43,922 nucleotides of DNA from an uncultured SAR86 cluster bacterium (GTDB lineage: Bacteria > Pseudomonadota > Gammaproteobacteria > Magnimaribacterales > Magnimaribacteraceae), in NCBI GenBank assembly GCA_902537425.1, contig CACBBD010000010.1, positions 1 through 43,922 on the forward strand, given 5' to 3'. Positions 6,469-39,596 of the stretch are shown in pieces. The stretch's first letter is position 1. The number at the start of each line of letters is the position of its first letter. The notes under the pieces were generated by a model. The model worked only from the letters and a program-made list of their open reading frames with translations. It ran no database searches and was not told the origin of the DNA. The position numbers and the translations under genes were made by a program.

Positions 6469-7689
6469 TTATAAGCTTTGAAAGGCCTGTTTTGCAGTAT
6501 TCTCTATAAAATCAATGTCTTCATTGCGATGAGCTAGAGAAATAAAATGATTATGGTATCCAAGCATGTAGACACCTCTCCTCACACATTCGTCAATCCA
6601 TCTGAAATGGGTTTCAAAGTCTACATCCTCCAATCGATAATAAGGCATAGAAGGTATTCCTGAGGCAATTAAGTTAAAACCTTCTTTCTCAGCAACTTTA
6701 ACAAGTCTTCTATTAAGATTCTCACCATACTCAATCAGTTTATTTGGAGCATTTTCCCTCTGCAATTGATCAAGAGTTGCGAGTGCAGCAGCCATGGGAG
6801 GTGCACTAAAAAACTGAGTACCAGTAAAGTAAACTTTTTCAGCAGAATGCTTCAGCTTTTTTTTACCGACCAATGATGCTAGAGGGTGGCCATTAGCAAT
6901 AGCCTTGCCAAAACAAATCATATCCGGTGAAAAATCAAAAGCTACATTAGAGCCGCCTAGATTTATTCTAAATCCAGCCCTCACATCATCGACAATAGTC
7001 AAAACTCCATATTGTTCGCATAAAGATGTAATTTTCTTCCAGTAGCCCTCTTCAGGTAGAGAGTTATCTCGTGAGACGGGATGGTCGTATGGCGAGGAGA
7101 TAAAACAAGCAATATCATCTCCATTCAAGCTGAGCAATTCTTCTAAGCCTTCAATGTCATTCCATTTAATCTTCAACACATGTTCATTATCAGAGTCAAT
7201 AATACCTGGCCTACTTTTATCTTGCATCCAAGGGGCAACGCCGTGATAACCGTCATCAATTTTTACTATCTTCCTCTTTGACGTGTATTCACGAGCTATC
7301 ATTACAGCTAAGCTTGTTGCATCTCCTCCATTCTTTCCAAATAAGGCCCAATCTGCAATATCTACCATTTCAACTAACTTAGTTGCAAGGTCAACCATAA
7401 TTGGTGATGCTAAACTAACAGTATTTCCTTTTTCAGAAGAGGTCTTGAATGCTTCTTCTACTTCGGGATGGTTATAGCCTAAAATTGATGGACCATATCC
7501 ACACATTAAATCTATGTATCGGTTATCATCAAGATCCCAAAAATATGCCCCTTCGGATCTAGAAAAAAATTTAGGTCCAGTATCTCTTACCGCATACTTA
7601 TAATGTCCAAATATGCCTCCAGGAATAACTTCCTTAGCCTTTTCGAAGTATTCATTTGATTTCGTTACTTCGTATGTAGTATTTTTCAT
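6469..7689 (-). CDS. Class III aminotransferase, glutamate-1-semialdehyde aminomutase-like
   Basis: A 406-residue PLP enzyme of fold type I. The PLP lysine is Lys262 in CFGKAIANGHPL, the aspartate that holds the pyridine nitrogen lies in VDDVRAGF (233-240), and GKNGGDATSLA (118-128) contacts the phosphate. It resembles HemL but lacks the strict GTFSGNP signature (here GTQFFSAPP) and sits among oxygenase, GST and phosphatase genes, so I do not call it hemL. The gene starts seven bases after the CmcJ-like gene. A second, longer paralogue lies at 18909-20279. The likely job is transamination or isomerisation of a pathway-specific substrate. Confidence 0.85.
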   Translation of the reverse strand: MKNTTYEVTKSNEYFEKAKEVIPGGIFGHYKYAVRDTGPKFFSRSEGAYFWDLDDNRYIDLMCGYGPSILGYNHPEVEEAFKTSSEKGNTVSLASPIMVDLATKLVEMVDIADWALFGKNGGDATSLAVMIAREYTSKRKIVKIDDGYHGVAPWMQDKSRPGIIDSDNEHVLKIKWNDIEGLEELLSLNGDDIACFISSPYDHPVSRDNSLPEEGYWKKITSLCEQYGVLTIVDDVRAGFRINLGGSNVAFDFSPDMICFGKAIANGHPLASLVGKKKLKHSAEKVYFTGTQFFSAPPMAAALATLDQLQRENAPNKLIEYGENLNRRLVKVAEKEGFNLIASGIPSMPYYRLEDVDFETHFRWIDECVRRGVYMLGYHNHFISLAHRNEDIDFIENTAKQAFQSL

Positions 7690-30767: not shown

Positions 30768-31169
30768 ATGAATCAAGCAGCACTTTTAACACCAGTATTT
30801 ATATTAATACTATGGACCTTTGCTATCACCGCAATTATGGCCTACGGTCGAGTAAAATTTACAAAAGATCCACAGGATGCAGCTCACACAAAAGATTTAA
30901 AAGGATTGATGCCTGCTTGGGTTGAGAGAACTTCAGATAACTATAATCATCTTTTTGAACAACCCGTGGCTTTTTATGTTGTTACTTTATCGATTGCACT
31001 AATCAATAACATTGAACCTTTGATGGTTCAATTAGCATGGGCATTCGTTGCAGTAAGAATAGTACATTCACTTGTTCAGCTAACTATAAATATTGTCTTA
31101 CTAAGATTTGTTATTTTTGCAATTGGTTGGTTAATTATTGCCTATATGGCATTTTCTCAACTCCTGTAA
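30768..31169 (+). CDS. MAPEG family membrane protein
   Basis: A 133-residue protein with four membrane helices. ERTSDNYNHLFEQPVAFYVV (residues 52-71) is the family signature, with the conserved N-x-x-E-x-P-x-F pattern, and AWAFVAVRIVHSLVQLT follows. MAPEG members are membrane-associated glutathione or eicosanoid enzymes; bacterial members often have glutathione transferase or peroxidase activity. A GGAGAG ribosome binding site precedes the ATG. The IspZ-like gene follows after 15 bases. Confidence 0.85.
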   Translation: MNQAALLTPVFILILWTFAITAIMAYGRVKFTKDPQDAAHTKDLKGLMPAWVERTSDNYNHLFEQPVAFYVVTLSIALINNIEPLMVQLAWAFVAVRIVHSLVQLTINIVLLRFVIFAIGWLIIAYMAFSQLL

Positions 31170-31184
31170 TTTGTTCCACTCTAG

Positions 31185-32087
31185 ATGCAAATTTGGAGTT
31201 ATCTTAGACCTTTTAACTTTCGTGGATATGAATGTCTAGTCAAGGTGACTTTAACATTCAGCAAAGTCACTTCAAGCTTATATGTAAATGAAAGACTCAT
31301 AGATGAACAGTCAATGAGTTATATGGAAGGAACTACTACTTTCACTCATTCTCTAGAAGCATTAGATAAATCAGAAGCTCACGTTGAGTCTGGCTATTTT
31401 AATTCGTGGAATACTGGTATCGCTGTAATTGAAGATGGGCAGGTAGTATATGAAAGTCACCCTGGTGAGGATGTTCGCTATGGCGAAAAATTAGTTAAGA
31501 AAATTTACGGGGAAAATTCAGATATAAACCAAAAGGATAAATGGAGAGAAAATAAGTATTCTGTTTATGCAGATCTAGGGTTAGGAGCTTTATTTTTTAT
31601 AGTTGGGAAAATCACAGGGGATTTAGTTTTTGCAACAATGGTGGGTGTAGTTGCAGGTTTAAGCCTTATTCTTTTGCAACGGTTTGTTAAGGTTGACCTT
31701 TTGGGCGGCTTCGCAGTTTTTGGCACAATCATGTTACTCATATCAGGTATTTTCTCTCTGATTTTACAAGATGAATACTGGGTACAAATGAAAGGAACCT
31801 TGCTTGGGCTAATGATAGCATTGGTGTTTTTTCTTGATGGGGTGTTCAGGCAAGGAACTTACTTCGGAGCTAGGTTCGAGCGTTATATACCAGGAGGAGC
31901 GCTCCATCAAAATAGGCTTGCCATAGGAATGAGTTTCACAGGTGTTTTTGGTGCTTTGAGTAACTATTTCGTAGCAGAAAATTTCTCGGAGGACTTTTGG
32001 CTGACCTACACCACCTTTCTAGATTTTCCTATATTCATCGTATTATTTTTATTGGTTCTCAGATGGTCGCGTAAGAAAAGTAAGTAA
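31185..32087 (+). CDS. IspZ/YciB-like membrane protein with extra N-terminal domain
   Basis: A 300-residue protein in two parts. Residues 1-110 are soluble and beta-rich, with a SSLYVNERLIDE segment and a GQVVYESH strand. Residues 125-295 form six hydrophobic helices with the order seen in the intracellular septation protein family (YADLGLGALFFIVG, then LQDEYWVQMKGTLLGL, then SNYFVAENFSEDFW). E. coli YciB has only the membrane part (about 180 residues). YciB affects envelope integrity and division; whether that applies here is unknown. The N-terminal domain resembles the separate 108-residue protein at 32893-33219. Confidence 0.65.
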   Translation: MQIWSYLRPFNFRGYECLVKVTLTFSKVTSSLYVNERLIDEQSMSYMEGTTTFTHSLEALDKSEAHVESGYFNSWNTGIAVIEDGQVVYESHPGEDVRYGEKLVKKIYGENSDINQKDKWRENKYSVYADLGLGALFFIVGKITGDLVFATMVGVVAGLSLILLQRFVKVDLLGGFAVFGTIMLLISGIFSLILQDEYWVQMKGTLLGLMIALVFFLDGVFRQGTYFGARFERYIPGGALHQNRLAIGMSFTGVFGALSNYFVAENFSEDFWLTYTTFLDFPIFIVLFLLVLRWSRKKSK

Positions 32088-32158: not shown

Positions 32159-32806
32159 TTAGTTAAGAAGTTTACCCATCCTAAATTCTATTGGCACTCC
32201 AAATTCAGCTGGTTTTGGAGCCTTCGTTTCAGCAAGTACTTCTAAACCAAGGGAACGATAAAATCCCACGGCGGGGTTATCGGATAGAACATCAAGTTGA
32301 AATTCTTGATAGCCAAGCTCTTTAGCTTCCTCAAATAAGTACTCCATCATCAAATAACCTACTCGTTGACCCCTTGCCTCTGGCTTAACTGCAATGGCAT
32401 GCACATAGAAGGTATTAGAGTAGATTACGGGATTTAACCAACTAGCTAATTTTGATCTCTCTGCAACTCCGACTATTTCTTCGGCAGTTACTTCTTCAGC
32501 TTTTAACATTTCTTCCCATAAAGGTCCTAGTGCTGCGACACGTTCTTTGAATTCAGTCCCATTAAAGGCAATTGCAACTCCAAGTAATTTACCTTCTCTA
32601 ATGCTCAATATTGCCGAATCAGCACTAAAAAGTGTACCGGGGGTTCGCCATGAACGTTGCACCGAAGCATCAAACAGGGAACGACGTTTCATATGGTATT
32701 CGTAAGACACCGGTCCAGTTGACCAGGCTAATTCTGGGATTTCATCAGCATGCAATTCTATGAGTTCGCCCTCTGCTTTGATGATATCAATATTCTCTTT
32801 ATTCAT
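32159..32806 (-). CDS. GNAT family N-acetyltransferase
   Basis: A 215-residue protein with the GNAT acetyl-CoA site: FYVHAIAVKPEARGQRVGYLM near residues 131-151, where RGQRVG binds the pyrophosphate, and LDVLSDNPAVGFYRSLGLEV near 172-191. The first 100 residues are less conserved and may determine the substrate, which is unknown. The start lies 8 bases beyond a guaA-like repeat (32815-32829). It ends convergent with the IspZ-like gene and is the farthest clear cargo gene from guaA in the proposed islet chain. Confidence 0.83.
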   Translation of the reverse strand: MNKENIDIIKAEGELIELHADEIPELAWSTGPVSYEYHMKRRSLFDASVQRSWRTPGTLFSADSAILSIREGKLLGVAIAFNGTEFKERVAALGPLWEEMLKAEEVTAEEIVGVAERSKLASWLNPVIYSNTFYVHAIAVKPEARGQRVGYLMMEYLFEEAKELGYQEFQLDVLSDNPAVGFYRSLGLEVLAETKAPKPAEFGVPIEFRMGKLLN

Positions 32807-32814
32807 AATTCATT

Positions 32815-32829
32815 TTATTTCCACTCAAT
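32815..32829 (-). repeat. guaA 3'-end-like repeat, copy D
   Basis: Minus-strand ATTGAGTGGAAATAA matches the last 15 bases of guaA at 13 positions and would encode IEWK-stop. It stands just upstream of the GNAT acetyltransferase start. I read it as a diverged attachment-site copy; taken alone the match is moderate. Confidence 0.5.
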
Positions 32830-32892
32830 AGAACTATACTCTAGAACCCTTATTTCTAAAGCATTTAAAAAAAAATTAATATGTAGTTTGTA

Positions 32893-33219
32893 TCATTTTT
32901 TTGAAAAAAATGTTTTTGCAATTCTATCAATTAAATTTAATTTATCTTGAAGAACCACAACACCGTTCACCATTATTGATAATTTGACTGAAAAAAAACC
33001 TGCTAAAAAAACTTCAATAGACTTTATATCATTTGAAACTTCAGTTTTAGAAAGCATTGCTTTGTTAGGATTTACCAAAATATCTGTATTCTGATCTAAG
33101 TGTTCATTATCTAAATATAAATCTGCGGAACCCATCCCTTCCCAATTCCACCAATTAGATACTTTGATTGTTTTTCCATTAAAATCAACCGACCATTCTT
33201 TATAATTAGATTTTTCCAT
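32893..33219 (-). CDS. Small soluble protein, unrecognised
   Basis: A 108-residue protein, mostly beta strands by pattern: WSVDFNGKTIKVSNWW (9-24), SADLYLDNEHLDQ (31-43), SIEVFLAGFFSVKLSIMVNG (65-84). The strand order resembles the N-terminal domain of the IspZ-like protein at 31185-32087, especially LYLDNEHLDQ against LYVNERLIDE and VNGVVVLQD against EDGQVVYES. No signal or membrane segment is certain. It ends the GDPD/sulfatase side of the islet region; 121 bases with no evident signal separate it from the GDPD-like gene. Confidence 0.55.
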   Translation of the reverse strand: MEKSNYKEWSVDFNGKTIKVSNWWNWEGMGSADLYLDNEHLDQNTDILVNPNKAMLSKTEVSNDIKSIEVFLAGFFSVKLSIMVNGVVVLQDKLNLIDRIAKTFFSKK

Positions 33220-33340
33220 CTAAATAATTTTGATAGAGTTTTGTATTGCACTAGCTACGAATATCTTTAAGTCATTGAAAATTAAATATGGATCCCCGAG
33301 AACTAACATATGTTGGGAATTCACGACCATAGGTATTTCA

Positions 33341-34264
33341 TTATAAATTTGGAAGTTTCATTACTGACTTAGTACTAAAATTATCATTTCCCTGTTTTGA
33401 ATCTGAATGTTCAAGAAATGAGTCCTTAAACTCTTCAAAAGGAGAGTATATACCCTTTACTTTACTACCAATAGATACCTCAAGTTGATCTAGATTTTTA
33501 ATTGGGAATAGGAAAAATGATATGTCTGTTTCTCCTGCGCCCATAATGAAATCAACACTCTGATATGGAATGGCCATTGCTTTTAGTTGAAATTCTTCTA
33601 ATTTACTCAAAATAAGGGTCAGCGGGGCATTTGTTCTATAGGAAGTAAAAATTGGACCAAGGTTATATCCAAGTCCCAACAAGGTATTTATATTTATTAG
33701 ATTGTAAGACTGAGGAATGAGTTTATCCTTTACCTTATCAAAACCATTTATATTCTTTAAAGAACTATAGAAATATGCAAATAACTCCTCATTGTGAACA
33801 TCAAGCTTAAGATCTATAACTACGTAAATTTTTTTTTCTAAAATCTTTGAAAAAACCCACTCTATCGAACAGGCATCAAAAGAAAATTTTTTTTCCGTTA
33901 AACAACTTAATTTTCCTTCTTTGTCTATATAAAAGTCAATTTCAATAAATTTAAGACCTGATTCAATAGAATTTTGAATTGTAGTCTTAGTATTTTGACC
34001 AGTTTCAAGGTAGTCTCCGCCTCTGTGCGCGATAAAAATAGGACCTTCATTAATAAGCCAATCATAATTAAAAATAGGGTTACTTTCTTTTGTAACATTA
34101 ATGGAAGGCTCTTTCTCTATTAAGTTACGGGATAAAAGACCATCAAGATATAACCAATCAAAGTAGATGACACTATTTCTCAGGTCTTGATTCAGTATTA
34201 AAAGAAAGAAGAACAAAGAAGAGCTCAATAAAATGAAAAAGTATTTTTTAAAATCGCTTTTCAT
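33341..34264 (-). CDS. Membrane-anchored GDPD-like (PLC-like TIM-barrel) protein, divergent active site
   Basis: A 307-residue protein with one N-terminal membrane helix (about 9-25), so the rest probably faces the periplasm. IAHRGGDYL near 76-84 and FIEIDF near 105-110 are the first catalytic His/Arg and the metal-binding Glu/Asp of glycerophosphodiester phosphodiesterases, and VVIDLKLD near 149-156 is the later Lys/Asp strand. The second catalytic His (HD motif after the DG turn) is absent; LSCLTEKKF stands there. Its ATG overlaps the sulfatase stop (ATGA), so the two are coupled. Hydrolysis of a glycerophosphoryl group is possible but not assured. Confidence 0.65.
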   Translation of the reverse strand: MKSDFKKYFFILLSSSLFFFLLILNQDLRNSVIYFDWLYLDGLLSRNLIEKEPSINVTKESNPIFNYDWLINEGPIFIAHRGGDYLETGQNTKTTIQNSIESGLKFIEIDFYIDKEGKLSCLTEKKFSFDACSIEWVFSKILEKKIYVVIDLKLDVHNEELFAYFYSSLKNINGFDKVKDKLIPQSYNLININTLLGLGYNLGPIFTSYRTNAPLTLILSKLEEFQLKAMAIPYQSVDFIMGAGETDISFFLFPIKNLDQLEVSIGSKVKGIYSPFEEFKDSFLEHSDSKQGNDNFSTKSVMKLPNL

Positions 34265-35661
34265 AGTTTTGATTTTAAAGTAATTACTTGTACTTGATTA
34301 TCGCGATAAATATTTTTGCTTTTCAATAAAAAGCTTTTGGGCACATGATCTCCTACGATATACACGTTCGTGTTTGTGATATTAGATTCTTCTAAAATGC
34401 TGAATACGCTCTTTAGAAACTTTTTATTAGAAATCAGATTTCCGCAAATAGCTCTATTAGTTTTCGTTTGATTAAAACACTCTAAATAGTCCTTCTCTGA
34501 ATGTATTTTTGTAGGTAGATGACCCTCTATACTTAAATAGTAAAGGAAGAAAGGACTTCTTTGTTCAGATACATTATTGAATACATGCTTGAAAAAAATA
34601 TCATCACATAATGATTTATATGCACCAGAACATTTAGGTAAGGAATCTTTATTTATTCCAGTCATAAAGAAAGTATTTGAAAAACCGATTTTCCTCCACC
34701 ATTCTCGTCTATTAAAGTATCCATTTAAATATGGGTGTGCGGCATAAACTTCATATCCCTTTGATTTTAGAATACTGGGAACACAATTTAATCCAACTAT
34801 ATCTGAAGAGTAATCATTAAATTTAACTCCACAAAGTTCTCTAAACTCAGCGGTTACAGTAGAACCGGTTGCGGCGTCAAGATTTTTGAATTTAATATCA
34901 TAGTTATCATTTAGATTGTCATTCTTAAGATCATTTATCAAAAAAGAATGTACCTTTTCATCTAAACTAAAACCGAGTGATTCAACTATTATTAATATAA
35001 TATTGCTTCTATTATCATCTTCGTACTCATTTTTTAAAAGAATATCATCATAAAAAATGTTTTCCGCCTTTTCATATTTATTTAATGTCTGTAAGACCTT
35101 CATTGAAGAGAGTTCTTGATAATCTATGTAAAAAGAATAAAGAAGAGAGTTGCTAAAGTTCTTCAAAGAAGTTGAAGTAATATTATTTTTCGCGAGCATT
35201 TCTTCGAAGCCTTGATACTTAATTAAATATCTATCCACAGATAAAGTCATTAAAGACAAGGCCAAGCAAACAAAGGATAAAAATTTTAATTTTTGTTCTG
35301 CTACATCACGAATGAGTATGTAAAATGATGCAGACAAACATATTAAAAAAAACTGAAAAATTAGGTAGTAATTGAAGTAAGCATGTGACCTAAAAAACCT
35401 TAAGTTCGTCAAGATGTCAAAAAAATTATGGAAATACAAAAGCCCTACATGGTTAATCAAATCTAAGTTTAAAAAAATAAAAAGGGAAATTGCTCCCATG
35501 ATAGGTCCTATCCAATAAGCAATAGGTATGATTAAAAAAATTTCATAAATAAAATACGATCTAGGGATATTTAAATAGCTCTGAGAGATTACACTTAGGA
35601 TAGTAAAAGAAAATACGATTAAAAGCACAAGAACCAAGTTATATCTTTTTAAATGCTTCAT
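34261..35661 (-). CDS. LtaS/sulfatase-type membrane phosphotransferase or hydrolase
   Basis: A 466-residue protein. Residues 1-150 contain about five membrane helices; the rest is an alkaline-phosphatase-superfamily domain likely in the periplasm. ILIIVESLG (222-230) supplies the metal-binding Glu, AATGSTVTAEFRELCG (263-278) the likely Thr nucleophile, and YIVGDHVP near residue 440 the Asp-His metal pair. The layout matches phosphoglycerol and phosphoethanolamine transferases of the LtaS/OpgB/EptA type. A coupled GDPD-like gene follows. Together they may decorate an envelope glycan or lipid with glycerophosphate; that is inference. Confidence 0.72.
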   Translation of the reverse strand: MKHLKRYNLVLVLLIVFSFTILSVISQSYLNIPRSYFIYEIFLIIPIAYWIGPIMGAISLFIFLNLDLINHVGLLYFHNFFDILTNLRFFRSHAYFNYYLIFQFFLICLSASFYILIRDVAEQKLKFLSFVCLALSLMTLSVDRYLIKYQGFEEMLAKNNITSTSLKNFSNSLLYSFYIDYQELSSMKVLQTLNKYEKAENIFYDDILLKNEYEDDNRSNIILIIVESLGFSLDEKVHSFLINDLKNDNLNDNYDIKFKNLDAATGSTVTAEFRELCGVKFNDYSSDIVGLNCVPSILKSKGYEVYAAHPYLNGYFNRREWWRKIGFSNTFFMTGINKDSLPKCSGAYKSLCDDIFFKHVFNNVSEQRSPFFLYYLSIEGHLPTKIHSEKDYLECFNQTKTNRAICGNLISNKKFLKSVFSILEESNITNTNVYIVGDHVPKSFLLKSKNIYRDNQVQVITLKSKL

Positions 35662-35668
35662 TTAAAAA

Positions 35669-35903
35669 TTATATCAGACGGATTACCTCGGTAGGGGGAG
35701 ATGAATAACTGGAACATATCGAAATATTTTTATATAGCTTCGGTCTTACAGAGAAGGAAAATTTCACTGATCCAGAAAAATCAAAAGAGATGAGGGTTAA
35801 TTCACCAAATTTATTCCCATTCCATAGTTACGTTATCTAAAACCTCTATAAAATCAATGGTTTTAAGGGTATTGAAATAGACTTTGTAACTTCTTTGTAA
35901 CTG
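35669..35903 (-). pseudogene. Possible frame-broken small gene between sulfatase and flavodoxin-like genes
   Basis: In a 248-base gap two overlapping minus-strand frames abut: one from 35903 to a stop at 35811 (includes TLKTIDFIEVLDNVTMEW) and one, in another frame, from about 35827 to a stop at 35669 (includes GNKFGELTLISFDFSG). Each is free of internal stops and has an alternating hydrophobic pattern; a one-base shift near 35815 would join them into about 78 residues. Neither has a convincing start. It is either a decayed gene or chance coding potential. Confidence 0.35.
35811..35825 (-). repeat. Weak guaA 3'-end-like sequence, copy E (doubtful)
   Basis: Minus-strand ATGGAATGGGAATAA agrees with the guaA terminal 15-mer at 12 positions and would encode MEWE-stop. 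It coincides with the suspected frame break at 35.8 kb, so the likeness may instead come from that coding sequence. I include it only as a weak candidate. Confidence 0.25.
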
Positions 35904-35909
35904 TTATTC

Positions 35910-36497
35910 TCAATTACCTTTAAGTCCTAGTTGAAGAACTTTCTCAATCCATCGATCTCGAGTCTTTGGTTTAGAGCCTTTTACCGGAGAAAATTCAGTT
36001 ACCTTAACAGGCTTTACTCCACAGAATCCGAGCGTCGCTTTCTTCAACTGATTGACGCTAGGGGCATTATAAATCCAACGGTAATAGAAAGTTGGGGTAT
36101 CCATAGTAGCTATAATGCGCGCTGATTTTCCTTCAAGATACCCATCCCATCCCATACCGCCAAGCTTCGATTCGTTGTAATCAAAAACAATGGAAGGGAG
36201 AAAAGTTCTATCAATAAACCCTTTTACAAGCGCTGGTAAACCGCCCCACCAAACAGGGTGAAACCAAACCATGTGCTCACATGCTTTAATTTCATCAATA
36301 GCCATCAGCAGATCAGGTTCTAGATCAATGCGCTTCTCATAACCAAACTTAAGATTAGGATTAAATTCCATATCTCTTATGATTATAGTTCTAATGTCGT
36401 ATCCACTTTGAAGTGCGCCTCGCTTGTAAGCATTTACCAGAGAACTGGTAAGTCTGTTGCTATCAGGATGTGCGTCAATTAATAGAATTTTTTTCAT
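35910..36497 (-). CDS. NAD(P)H dehydrogenase (quinone), flavodoxin-fold
   Basis: A 195-residue FMN/FAD oxidoreductase of the MdaB/KefF/NQO1 type. ILLIDAHPDSNRLTSSL (residues 4-20) is the flavin-phosphate loop, and MVWFHPVWWGGLPALVKGFIDR (given in part: HPVWWGGLPA, near 80-90) is the family signature for two-electron quinone reduction. It is probably cytoplasmic and protects against quinone or electrophile stress. The start codon abuts repeat copy C (TAAATG), whose GGGA may serve as ribosome binding site. It lies in the proposed islet chain. Confidence 0.85.
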   Translation of the reverse strand: MKKILLIDAHPDSNRLTSSLVNAYKRGALQSGYDIRTIIIRDMEFNPNLKFGYEKRIDLEPDLLMAIDEIKACEHMVWFHPVWWGGLPALVKGFIDRTFLPSIVFDYNESKLGGMGWDGYLEGKSARIIATMDTPTFYYRWIYNAPSVNQLKKATLGFCGVKPVKVTEFSPVKGSKPKTRDRWIEKVLQLGLKGN

Positions 36498-36512
36498 TTA
36501 TTCCCACTCAAT
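36498..36512 (-). repeat. guaA 3'-end-like repeat, copy C
   Basis: Minus-strand ATTGAGTGGGAATAA matches the guaA terminal 15-mer at 14 of 15 positions and fills the exact space between the stop of the 114-residue gene and the ATG of the quinone reductase gene. It reads IEWE-stop in the frame that corresponds to GuaA. Confidence 0.75.
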
Positions 36513-36857
36513 TTAATCTAATCCTTCAAGATTTCTCATATATTTTAGTTCCTGAGGATCTAAATTTAATTTTTTAACTACTGGATGATTTTCGTCAATC
36601 AATCTCCAAAAAGGAATTTCTTTCCCATGTTCTTCAATTGCTTTCCTGAGAAAGATTCCTGTTGAGACTGGACAAGAATTATCCGCGCCTATTTCTTTTG
36701 CCAAATCTAATCTCATTTCTTTTGAAGTCTTTTGTGCACCTTCAGGAATTTTCTTAATGTATTCAGCTATCTTTTCTGGGGAAGAAATAAGCATTTTCTG
36801 CCCAGCTTTTAAGTCTGAAAAGTTTTTTTCAAGAATTTTTACTATATTTCTAGACAT
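36513..36857 (-). CDS. Alkyltransferase-like (MGMT/ATL-fold) small protein, no active-site cysteine
   Basis: A 114-residue protein. The order IAEYIKKIPEG (31-41), MRLDLAKEIGA (48-58), SCPVSTGIFLRKAIEE (60-75), IPFWRLIDENHP (80-91) and MRNLEGL (106-112) parallels the DNA-binding domain of O6-alkylguanine transferases and ATL proteins. The IPCHRV active-site block is IPFWRLID here, so no methyl-accepting cysteine exists; ATL proteins also lack it and act as damage sensors. I am moderately sure of the fold and unsure of the function. It starts just after repeat copy B. Confidence 0.5.
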   Translation of the reverse strand: MSRNIVKILEKNFSDLKAGQKMLISSPEKIAEYIKKIPEGAQKTSKEMRLDLAKEIGADNSCPVSTGIFLRKAIEEHGKEIPFWRLIDENHPVVKKLNLDPQELKYMRNLEGLD

Positions 36858-36865
36858 TTTCTACC

Positions 36866-36880
36866 TTACTCCCACTCAAT
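36866..36880 (-). repeat. guaA 3'-end repeat, copy B
   Basis: Minus-strand ATTGAGTGGGAGTAA is identical to the last 15 bases of guaA. With the preceding GCAACT it would encode ATIEWE-stop, the same residues as the GuaA C-terminus but with different codons, which suggests a copy from another guaA allele rather than a simple local duplication. It lies nine bases before the ATG of the 114-residue gene. Confidence 0.85.
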
Positions 36881-36971
36881 AGTTGCACAAAACACCACCT
36901 CTGAAACCCCTACTATGACTGTGTTTCCGACCCAGCGCAACAGTACCCTGAATAATGTTTTGTTTTGACAT
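36876..36971 (-). CDS. Possible 31-residue basic small ORF
   Basis: An ATG-started frame of 31 codons in the 260-base gap between the 114-residue and 214-residue genes. The peptide begins MSKQNIIQG and ends RGGVLCNY, is rich in Arg, His and Gly, and its stop codon lies within repeat copy B. Upstream there is a GAGG, but 15 bases away. It may be chance; the surrounding gap, with more G+C than the flanks, holds no other signal I can name. Confidence 0.25.
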   Translation of the reverse strand: MSKQNIIQGTVALGRKHSHSRGFRGGVLCNY

Positions 36972-37117
36972 AACTTCTACTACCTCAACCGGCTCCTGTG
37001 CCTGGCACTTGATTAGTCACGCGAAAGCGCTACTCTGTTTAAAAAATTGAAAAATTAGTATTTCCTGGCTACCGGATACGCTTTTGTTAAATGCGCGGGT
37101 TAAATTCCCAGTATGGA

Positions 37118-37762
37118 TCAATTGGCTGTGATATCTGGTGTTCTCAAAATCTCTTGTTCGTCCACATTCTTTTTCTCAAAGTTATGACTGGGTGTCATGT
37201 TTATAGCTTCATCTGCTTCAGCCATATCAGTCTTCAGCTGTTGAAAAGAATAATGACCATTATGATTTCTAACGGACCTAAAGGTGAAAACGAATATGCC
37301 CCAAAGGTTGAGTACTAAGCATGCGAAAATAACTTCAGGCCTAATCAAGTCACTAAAGAGCGTGTACATGACAAACTGAATCGTTATCTCGGGTATAAAG
37401 GGCAGAATTTTGATCAAAAACCGCGGAGATGCAGGCAAGTAGCAGAGGCTGGTGCCTACAATTATCGCCAAGCTCAGAAAGATAAACTCGAGCTCAAATC
37501 TCGTGACCTTACCTTCAAGTGCACCGTTGAGACCAACGAAAGCCAGCATCAAACAGAAAGCGGCATGTGTCTTGTGGTGTTTAAGATCCCGGTACGAGAT
37601 AAAAGTGTTCAGTCGCTCATTTACAAAAGCCCAGCGAGGAGTCTTCCGATGAAAATCATCGAAGATCTCGAATAGAGCAACCCCCCCATAAAAGATGGCT
37701 TCAAACCACAAAATTATATGGAGTGTTGTTGTTACCGGGAAAAATTCTGTCACTGTCAACAC
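37118..37762 (-). CDS. Membrane protein of different base composition, unrecognised
   Basis: A 214-residue protein with hydrophobic segments at about 12-32, 64-82, 88-108, 115-135 and 140-160, and a polar 50-residue C-terminal tail (likely cytoplasmic, with many Asp and Glu). I do not recognise the family. Its coding sequence is visibly richer in G+C and uses CTC, CGC and GGC codons more than the neighbours, which suggests recent acquisition. It lies between guaA and repeat copy B, so it is the cargo closest to guaA. The region upstream holds a promoter-like repeat cluster. Confidence 0.65.
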   Translation of the reverse strand: MLTVTEFFPVTTTLHIILWFEAIFYGGVALFEIFDDFHRKTPRWAFVNERLNTFISYRDLKHHKTHAAFCLMLAFVGLNGALEGKVTRFELEFIFLSLAIIVGTSLCYLPASPRFLIKILPFIPEITIQFVMYTLFSDLIRPEVIFACLVLNLWGIFVFTFRSVRNHNGHYSFQQLKTDMAEADEAINMTPSHNFEKKNVDEQEILRTPDITAN

Positions 37763-37785
37763 AGGTAATACCTCATAAGGCTAGA

Positions 37786-37838
37786 AATCGAAGGTTTGTT
37801 TAGGAACCTCAAAACTTAATAATTGCAAACCTTCGATT
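37786..37838 (-). promoter_or_regulatory. 13-bp perfect inverted repeat upstream of the 214-residue gene
   Basis: AATCGAAGGTTTG at 37786-37798 and CAAACCTTCGATT at 37826-37838 are exact complements around a 27-base spacer, starting 24 bases before the ATG at 37762. It could form a hairpin in the leader RNA or be an operator. It is too far from a T run to be an obvious terminator. Confidence 0.55.
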
Positions 37839-37911
37839 AAGACAACCCACCATTAAAAACCCCTAGGCGGGAAATTGATCATCAAAACCTTTATGTTTTG
37901 CAGTAAGTGAC

Positions 37912-37998
37912 CAAACTTTGCACTAAAGTTTGTATCTACAGAACAAAGATACTATAAGAATAAGGGTATTGTCAAAAGTTTGTATTAAGTTTGTATCT
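37912..37998 (-). promoter_or_regulatory. Promoter with repeated AAGTTTGTATCT sites
   Basis: The 12-mer AAGTTTGTATCT occurs at 37926-37937 and 37987-37998, with a 10-base copy at 37976-37985. Inside this array, on the minus strand, TTGACA (37975-37970) is followed by possible -10 boxes TAGTAT (15-base spacing) or TATCTT (18). Two dyads overlap: CAAACTTT/AAAGTTTG (37912-37932) and GTATCT/AGATAC (37932-37952). The array looks like a regulated promoter for the 214-residue gene, giving a leader of about 180 bases; integrase arm sites are an alternative. Confidence 0.5.
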
Positions 37999-38036
37999 GA
38001 AGAATCCTTATTTTATAGGGGTTTCAGACGATATTT

Positions 38037-38051
38037 TTACTCCCACTCAAT
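38037..38051 (-). repeat. guaA 3'-end core, copy A (within guaA)
   Basis: The final 15 bases of guaA, ATTGAGTGGGAGTAA, encode IEWE-stop. The guaA 3' end is an established integration hotspot for genomic islands, and copies B, C and D downstream repeat it, so this is the likely attachment core. Confidence 0.75.
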
Positions 38052-39596
38052 TGTAGCTGGTGGTTTACTAGAAATATCATAAGTTACCCGTGATACTTCA
38101 GGAATTTCATTGATAATTCTATTAGAAACTTTTTCTAAGAAAGTATGAGGGAGTTTAGCTGACTTAGCTGTCATAAAATCTATAGTTTCAACTGCTCTTA
38201 GGGCAATGACATATTTATACCGCCTAGAATCCCCTACTACTCCAACGGATTTAACCGGTAAAAATACTGCAAAAGCTTGGCTTACCTTTTCATAATAGCC
38301 GTCTTTAACCAACTCACTAATAAAAATGTCATCGGCTAACTGAAGGATTTTTATATAAGGTCTTTTAATTTCACCAAGAATTCGGACACCTAAACCTGGA
38401 CCTGGAAAAGGGTGTCTAAATAATATCTCTTTTGGTAAACCAAGCTCTAAACCAATCTTTCTGACTTCATCTTTAAATAGATCCTTTAAGGGCTCTATCA
38501 CAGGGAGATTAAGATAACTCGGCAGACCTCCTACATTGTGATGAGATTTTATTACATGCGCTGACCCATTCTTTGTGCCAGCTGATTCAATAACATCAGG
38601 ATAAATTGTTCCCTGTGCTAACCATTGAATTTTTGTATTTCTTTTTGCCTCTTTAAGAAAGACATCTATAAAAGTTTTTCCAATAACTTTGCGTTTCTGC
38701 TCCGGATCTTTTTTTCCTTTCAAATCTCTGAGGAATTGATTGCCGGCATTTGCTCTTTTTACTTTGATTCCAAATTTACCTTTGAAAGTTTCCATGACTT
38801 GGTCGCCTTCATTGAGCCGAAGGAGTCCATTGTCTACAAAGATACAGGTTAACTGATTGCCTATTGCTTTTGAGAGTAATGCTGCAACAACAGCAGAATC
38901 CACGCCTCCTGATAAACCCAATAATACTTCTTGATCACCTACCTGCTCTCTTATTTCACTTACCGCTCGATCAATTATATTTTTAGAATTCCACAAACCT
39001 TTGCACCCTGATATATCTCTAACAAAGTTTTTCAATATCTTTTTGCCTTGAGGTGTATGCGTTACTTCAGGATGAAACTGAAGACCGAATATCTTTTTTG
39101 TTGGATGATGAAAGGCTGCTATGGGACTATTGTTGGTTGTTGCGCAAACCTTAAAATCTTTAGGAAGTTTGGAAACATGGTCTCCATGACTCATCCAAAC
39201 ACTCATTTTCTTTTTATTGATACCTTTAAAAAGTCCTGAACCTTGGCTCTTGAGAAATAAATCCGCATGACCAAATTCTCTTTTATTGGCTAATTCAACT
39301 TTTCCTTTCAGTTGCTTAGCTATAGATTGCATTCCATAACAGATCCCAAGAAGCGGAATACCGAGCTCAAAAACTTTATCATGTACCTTAGGGGAGCCTT
39401 TTTGTTTTACTGTTTCCGGTCCACCAGAGAGAATAATGCCATTGGCATTGAAATCTTTAATAGCTTTGAAAGAGGCTCGGTGACTATATATTTCGCAATA
39501 GACTCCAAGTTCTCTTACTCTTCTGGCAATGAGTTGTGTGTATTGTGAACCAAAATCAATTATTAAAATTTTATCGGCAAGAATGTTCTGTGCCAT
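38037..39596 (-). CDS. guaA: GMP synthase (glutamine-hydrolysing)
   Basis: A 519-residue enzyme that aminates XMP to GMP. The N-terminal amidotransferase domain has the nucleophile Cys86 in GICYGMQ and the His/Glu pair in [10 protein letters not shown] near 172-181. The ATP-pyrophosphatase loop [10 protein letters not shown] is near 225, and the C-terminal dimerisation domain ends in the conserved KPPATIEWE. The length and motifs are canonical. It starts four bases after guaB, forming the usual guaBA operon. Its 3' end appears to serve as an insertion site (see repeats A-D). Confidence 0.97.

Follow-up and report, generated by a model that had tools for sequence, protein, structure and literature searches.

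Probable integrase-dependent gene cassettes in tandem behind guaA in SAR86 bacteria

The window analysed here is a 43,922-base stretch (contig CACBBD010000010.1) from an uncultured SAR86 cluster bacterium, contig C10 of a genome of 1.34 Mb in 33 contigs that is 74% complete. It carries guaA on the minus strand, 93-97% identical to guaA of SAR86 single-cell or metagenome records, and behind it a series of genes separated by copies of the last 15 bases of guaA, called the core below. The stretch from 38051 to 32815 is very probably a tandem array of non-autonomous gene cassettes that depend on an integrase, are moved in trans and sit at the guaA 3' end. Read in the direction of guaA, the locus holds the following features (ORF, open reading frame; genomes are given as G numbers).

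38037-39596, minus strand: guaA, 519 amino acids; its last 15 bases, 38037-38051, are the core and presumed attB
37886-38036, minus strand: unit 1 5' arm (P'-like), direct repeats at 37925-37935, 37975-37985 and 37986-37996; in a start class of 17 that includes the integrase-bearing G036 element
37118-37762, minus strand: unit 1 cargo, ORF of 214 amino acids without family match
36881-36945, minus strand: unit 1 3' arm, in a class of 13 ends with other genes and unrelated bodies
36866-36880, minus strand: core B, exact
36513-36857, minus strand: unit 2 cargo, ORF of 114 amino acids; core-bounded also in G013, behind a degenerate core in G047; without 3' arm
36498-36512, minus strand: core C, one mismatch
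35910-36497, minus strand: unit 3 cargo, flavodoxin-fold quinone/FMN reductase of 195 amino acids; its ATG adjoins the stop codon of the core
35826-35909, minus strand: unit 3 3' arm, 10-base direct repeats at 35882-35891 and 35893-35902
35811-35825, minus strand: core E, degenerate, three mismatches
34261-35661, minus strand: sulfatase-domain protein, 466 amino acids
33341-34264, minus strand: ORF of 307 amino acids without Pfam match
32893-33219, minus strand: ORF of 108 amino acids; with its arm, a free-standing unit in G011
32830-32892, minus strand: 3' arm ahead of core D, common to unit 1 of G011 (end cluster E7)
32815-32829, minus strand: core D, two mismatches
32159-32806, minus strand: GNAT acetyltransferase, 215 amino acids; behind a core here and in G006, G010 and G012
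30768-32087, plus strand: IspA-like and MAPEG genes, the first neighbours common to several relatives

The core is exact at 38037, where guaA ends, and at 36866, and has one mismatch at 36498, two at 32815 and three at 35811, all on the minus strand; all four extra copies point in the guaA orientation. An earlier note on this DNA had placed cores at these five sites and held the copies to be beyond chance, and both claims were borne out: with at most three mismatches the window has six matches against 1.69 expected, and none of 100 shuffles reached six. The copy at 35811, which the note called doubtful, proved genuine, as the stretch of about 35811-35905 that ends in core E matches, at 90-94% identity, unit ends that accompany other genes in G041, G179 and G022. 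Four of the seven matches with at most two mismatches in the whole genome lie in the window cluster and the remaining three all have two mismatches, while exact copies are limited to guaA and the DNA downstream of it, so that the 15-mer is not a genome-wide ribosome-binding motif.

Comparison with related genomes showed that gene order behind guaA is not kept. The seven downstream genes of the window were found as a set in no other region compared, presence and absence change at the core, and the central claim of the note, that cassette-like units with no integrase in view stand at the guaA 3' end, is upheld. Its division of the array needed correction. The sulfatase, GDPD and 108-residue genes, described as a single unit, are composite, since the 404 bases 33219-32816 (108-residue gene and arm) are 92% identical to a free-standing core-bounded unit of 405 bases in G011; the same gene also stands directly behind a core in G140 and G106. 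The GNAT gene behind core D is accessory too, with a homologue in a 3.55-kb stretch of G013 and G050. Two labels found no support: the 114-residue gene, called alkyltransferase-like, has no Pfam match at E 0.001 and no NCBIfam match at E 0.01, and the 307-residue gene, called GDPD, has no Pfam match at E 0.001. Unit 2, if short chance matches are set aside, has matches of 93-95% only in G013 and G047, both in guaA arrays. The direct repeats of the window are a 10-base repeat with a spacing of 11 in unit 3 and an 11-base repeat in three copies in the 5' arm of unit 1. Beyond the array, the distance between guaA and the start of the MAPEG gene is 1.2-6.9 kb in eight regions of the same genus.

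Core-bounded units also occur elsewhere in the SAR86 order. We surveyed 203 genomes, found guaA in 201, and examined 138 regions downstream of guaA of up to 8 kb each (968 kb in all) with a strict rule for the core, a 12-mer with at most one mismatch plus the stop codon. The first 92 regions were chosen blind to downstream copies, and 45 of them had extra cores (48 by a looser rule). Among the 46 regions added later, nine had been picked for known core sites and all nine had extra cores, as had 17 of the other 37. Region G171, without a guaA end, and three redundant loci were dropped; three of the 138 regions are on contigs without genome assignment, and one of these three (L022) has a guaA only 65% identical. 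By the strict rule, 106 extra cores were found in 71 regions: one in 47 regions, two in 15, three in seven and four in two. Leaving out the nine picked regions, 62 of 129 had extra cores. The reverse strand and the reversed pattern gave no match in the 138 regions, and 20 permuted cores gave none 17 times and one three times, which together with the shuffles rules out chance repeats. Outside SAR86, two of 63 gammaproteobacterial guaA loci had a copy, one each. A 19-base extended core is present in 72 of the 203 genomes.

The copies bound units that are exchanged between genomes and swapped between families. In pairs of the same genus, G009 and G010 have a 571-base first unit in common and diverge immediately behind the second core, while the sequence that follows this core, but not the first unit, is common to G006 and G010. 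A unit encoding 157 amino acids is present in 11 genomes of four families, always with the same start position relative to the core; it lies directly behind guaA in nine of them and within arrays in two. A twelfth copy, which is partial, comes from a genome that gave no good match to guaA. Between families, whole units are far more alike than the guaA ends beside them: 99.7% against 66.5% for G010 and G106, 99.7% against 70.5% for G010 and G093, 98.4% against 73.7% for G179 and G041, and 97.7% against 65.1% for G091 and G035. The 3.55-kb stretch with the GNAT gene lies behind the third core in G013 and behind guaA in G050, a genome of another family, and the two copies are 99.1% identical. Of 114 cross-family alignments (at least 88% identity over at least 100 bases), 53 begin or end at a core in both genomes.

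The crossover is located inside the core, in ATTGAGTGGGA. When pairs of cores were alike in the DNA after them, the right end of the core (last Glu base and stop codon) agreed in 151 of 206 pairs and the six bases on the left in 35 of 206; when they were alike before the core, it was the left that agreed, in 141 of 195, against 52 of 195 for the right. Random pairs agreed in 22% and 11%. This opposite pattern on the two sides places the exchange within the core.

Unrelated genes have arms in common. By single linkage, 92 of the 106 unit ends fall in eight clusters, and because part of this clustering comes from the sharing of whole units, unit bodies were compared separately. Of 104 ends, 80 look like the end of another unit whose body is unrelated, and for 59 of these the identity is at least 85% over a stretch of 50 bases or longer. 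Direct repeats of at least seven bases, spaced 9-14, occur in 67 of 106 ends and in 45 of 493 control windows, and judged from their sequence they may be the arm-type sites of an integrase. Arms without a gene were found in G012 (341 bases) and G169 (296 bases), and three further units measure 118-176 bases.

The cargo is mostly single genes. Median unit length is 1.2 kb, the shortest unit has 118 bases and 27 of the 106 exceed 1.6 kb; exactly one ORF of at least 80 amino acids is present in 67 units, none in six and more than one in 33. In the 79 units of up to 1.6 kb the longest ORF runs in the guaA direction in 66 and in the opposite direction in eight, and five have no ORF of 60 amino acids. 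Among the 66 ORFs in the guaA direction, 24 start -1 to +9 bases from the stop codon of the core. Such directions and start positions suggest that the cargo may be read through from guaA and that the core may serve as a ribosome binding site, as the earlier note had proposed. Outside the window, 97 main ORFs form 70 cargo families, 55 of them singletons. Of 30 cargo proteins hand-picked from the 97, Pfam recognised 16 at E 0.001, in some cases with scores under the curated cut-off; the matches include amine oxidase, GST, dienelactone hydrolase, HAD, flavodoxin fold, ferric reductase, alpha/beta hydrolase, acyltransferase, HNH and X-Pro peptidase, among others.

Integrases adjoin guaA in a few relatives. 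The units of the window contain no recombinase, and their genes have no match to an integrase or conjugation family. The only two tyrosine recombinases seen in the genome itself, of 313 and 301 amino acids, lie on other contigs (C2 and C11) and are taken for XerD and XerC, putatively, by size and look. A scan of 22 genomes for the Phage_integrase family gave matches in 21, mostly Xer-like pairs, with five further matches above the cut-off (G146, G013, G181, G006 and G036) and three more below it. The integrase family of G036 is found in three of the 203 genomes, G036, G004 and G019, each time directly behind guaA, and as a weak hit in G126 away from guaA. Applied to the 138 regions, the integrase models recovered these three and, marginally, an ORF in L022 (E 1.3e-4). 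Repeats are present in both arms of two of these elements, the same 11-base repeat in G036 and a 7-base repeat in G019. The 5' arm of the G036 element clusters with 16 others, including that of window unit 1, and the 5' arm of the G004 element with eight others; both clusters include units without integrase. The arms of G019 match no other arms. A serine-resolvase-like ORF of 210 amino acids stands behind the integrase gene in the G036 element (L136), and the G019 element has a similar pair.

The G036 integrase had no relative in the viral contigs. The extended core matched nine viral stretches, three with the full guaA end of another bacterium, one with a partial guaA end and five in other contexts, and the repeat-arm pattern matched seven. 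A viral origin was set aside; none of the nine stretches was shown to be SAR86. Two observations among IMG/VR contigs are recorded here in their own right. L226, a viral contig of another host, has a partial guaA 3' end at about base 6827, as if adjoining a guaA-integrated element, and L221 and L223, from one sample, have the core in a non-guaA context with nearly identical bases before it and different ones after.

In the mechanism that we propose, a unit consists of a gene (several in a few units, none in a few others) and an attachment arm of about 70-105 bases, made of direct repeats followed by the core, and some units also have a 5' arm behind the core. A tyrosine integrase that targets guaA and arrives on an autonomous element would join an excised circle to the gene by recombination between their cores. 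The gene would keep its coding end because the core supplied by the incomer restores ...TIEW, one Glu codon and the stop; with every insertion the last base and the stop codon of guaA would be replaced, and the protein would still end in ...IEWE. Units without integrase, with arm classes in common with integrase-bearing elements, would be mobilised in trans. We infer excision as circles, this mobilisation, a vector between cells and expression from the guaA operon.

Several results weigh against such a cassette array. The helper would be rare, with the guaA integrase family in just three of 203 genomes plus one weak hit, and in 67 of the 138 regions no core beyond that of guaA was found. In the window, unit 2 has no 3' arm, its gene running into core C; across the regions, 24 of 104 ends have no counterpart among the ends of unrelated units. 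By the narrow rule applied, 61 of the 114 alignments between families do not begin or end at a core in both genomes, and the 157-residue unit of G010 and G033 is only 80.0% identical against 69.4% for the guaA end, because one copy carries an insertion. Mean core mismatches were 0.23, 0.25, 0.44 and 0.0 for copies one to four, a decay with distance from guaA that is not clear, so that polar growth with the newest unit adjoining guaA is not clearly supported. Inverted repeats in the arms, striking by eye, are hardly enriched (28 of 106 against 172 of 977), and the palindrome was therefore dropped and is not claimed as a feature.

Accretion and decay, in which full guaA islands with an integrase were inserted serially and then deleted to dead, immobile remnants between cores, seems improbable. 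It would fit the integrase-bearing elements at the site, the degeneracy of some cores, the 27 units above 1.6 kb, and window unit 1, whose 5' arm is of the G036 class and whose 3' arm belongs to a different one, as expected of a hybrid left by deletion. However, small integrase-free units are near-identical across families, with the same ends and different neighbours, which is not expected of dead remnants, and the empty units of G012 and G169 consist of arms only. Homologous recombination at guaA, with the core repeats as by-products, is very unlikely. A common guaA flank would permit it, and some high-identity alignments reach up to 33 bases into guaA, but guaA beside shared units is just 65-81% identical, the arms that precede the core are conserved between units with unrelated genes, the exchange points lie inside the 15-base core, and the contents of a second site in genus g15, which has a guaA-like end of about 45 bases, differ from one genome to the next in all four. 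We give next to no credence to the 15-mer as a ribosome-binding or regulatory motif that arose repeatedly ahead of genes, which accounts for the several genes that start within 0-9 bases of the core but not for region matches that all run in the guaA direction, exact copies found in the own genome only here, the sharing of units or the arms.

The guaA-like end of g15 (G073, G074, G090 and G092; L238-L241) belongs to a short ORF on the minus strand at about base 1950, ending for example in ...IIYDSSSKPMVTIEWE, behind a dehydrogenase-like gene, and different DNA follows it in each genome. One such site holds a 1.23-kb unit that other f3 genomes have behind guaA or a core; at this place G073 appears to lack the unit. 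The translocated guaA end looks like a second loading site. A 15-mer, ATTGAGTGGGAATAA, is conserved just ahead of a phosphatase-like gene at base 1501 in five genomes of one genus (L091, L094, L098, L103 and L105); it has no arms and seems unrelated to the arrays. As for guaA itself, three matches of family f4 have one in-frame TGA each (G182:C10, G185:C15 and G200:C3), and G173 has two guaA matches (C3 and C18), one of full length and one reaching residue 511 near a contig end.

Returning to the cassette array, it is possible, and we propose it tentatively, that SAR86 has a distributed integron-like system, with a shared pool of mostly single-gene cassettes behind guaA, probably expressed from the guaBA operon, an integrase that cells do not retain and that passing guaA-targeting elements provide in trans, and a second, translocated guaA end for loading in one genus. 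If this is true, single genes are traded between families in an ocean lineage that is streamlined, uncultured and very abundant and that maintains neither an integrase nor a conjugation system, and the end of an essential gene is a port for gene exchange. The precise unit boundaries would allow mobile genes in SAR86 to be found automatically, and the core, the arms and the few candidate integrases make up a small attachment-site system open to testing.

In integron arrays, one gene and a recombination site of about 60-100 bases are repeated in tandem and in the same orientation behind one entry gene end. The SAR86 arrays are similar in joining a gene to a short attachment site, in tandem, in one orientation and behind one entry gene end. 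They differ in that their core is the end of guaA, a housekeeping gene, and in the direct repeats of their arms. An IntI-type integrase was not identified, the genome, at 74% completeness, showing just the two Xer-like tyrosine recombinases on C2 and C11. Known cis-mobilizable elements (CIMEs) and other remnants of the accretion of integrative and conjugative elements (ICEs) are described as larger ICE derivatives. SAR86 units are like CIMEs in being bounded by attachment sites and lacking integrase and conjugation genes by family matches. They differ from CIMEs in sizes from 118 bases and in cargo that changes almost unit by unit (70 families among 97 ORFs). The 5' arm of window unit 1 is common with the integrase-bearing G036 element, and no deletion intermediate was seen. 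Tycheposons and PICMI target tRNA genes and fis, respectively, and have their own recombinase, whereas the window units target guaA and have none.

The closest single step is that of GIsul2, for which the consulted part of the source (PMC9376610) describes a 15-kb island with its own guaA-specific tyrosine-type integrase, targeting the guaA 3' end. In recA-deficient E. coli this integrase excises and integrates CR2-sul2, a unit without integrase, between att cores at guaA (PMC9376610). SAR86 units are likewise bounded by copies of the guaA 3' end; set against what those sections report, they are mostly single genes, with up to four extra cores per array and several arm classes, and their own integrase is not encoded in the window and, by the models used, is absent from 135 of the 138 regions. 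In Dehalococcoides, tandem islands at ssrA are bounded by a 20-base copy of the gene end, and 15 of them lack the integration module and are called possible cis-mobilizable elements, while 16 have it; CIMEs are mentioned there too (PMC3146451, in part). There, in contrast to SAR86, the recombinase is a CcrB-type serine recombinase, the target is an RNA gene and the units are island-sized, and the portion of that paper considered does not describe single-gene cassettes with shared arms. The additive flexible genomic island of 'Ca. Methylopumilus' has repeats of the last 20 bases of tRNA-Lys and variable islands of 330 bases to 42 kb with 1-63 genes (PMC10872708, in part). Both lineages are streamlined pelagic bacteria with variable units between repeats of the 3' end of a gene; the target in 'Ca. 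Methylopumilus' is a tRNA, and attachment arms, identical units across families and an assigned integrase are not described in the sections consulted (PMC10872708).

SAR86 guaA cassettes were not described in the titles and abstract beginnings of the literature searched, with subscription journals mostly outside its scope. The single step (GIsul2), tandem units without integrase (Dehalococcoides) and small units between tRNA-Lys ends ('Ca. Methylopumilus') are already known from the parts of these sources considered. As far as this literature goes, the combination that appears new is that of single-gene units with interchangeable arms, shared across SAR86 families and placed at a protein gene.

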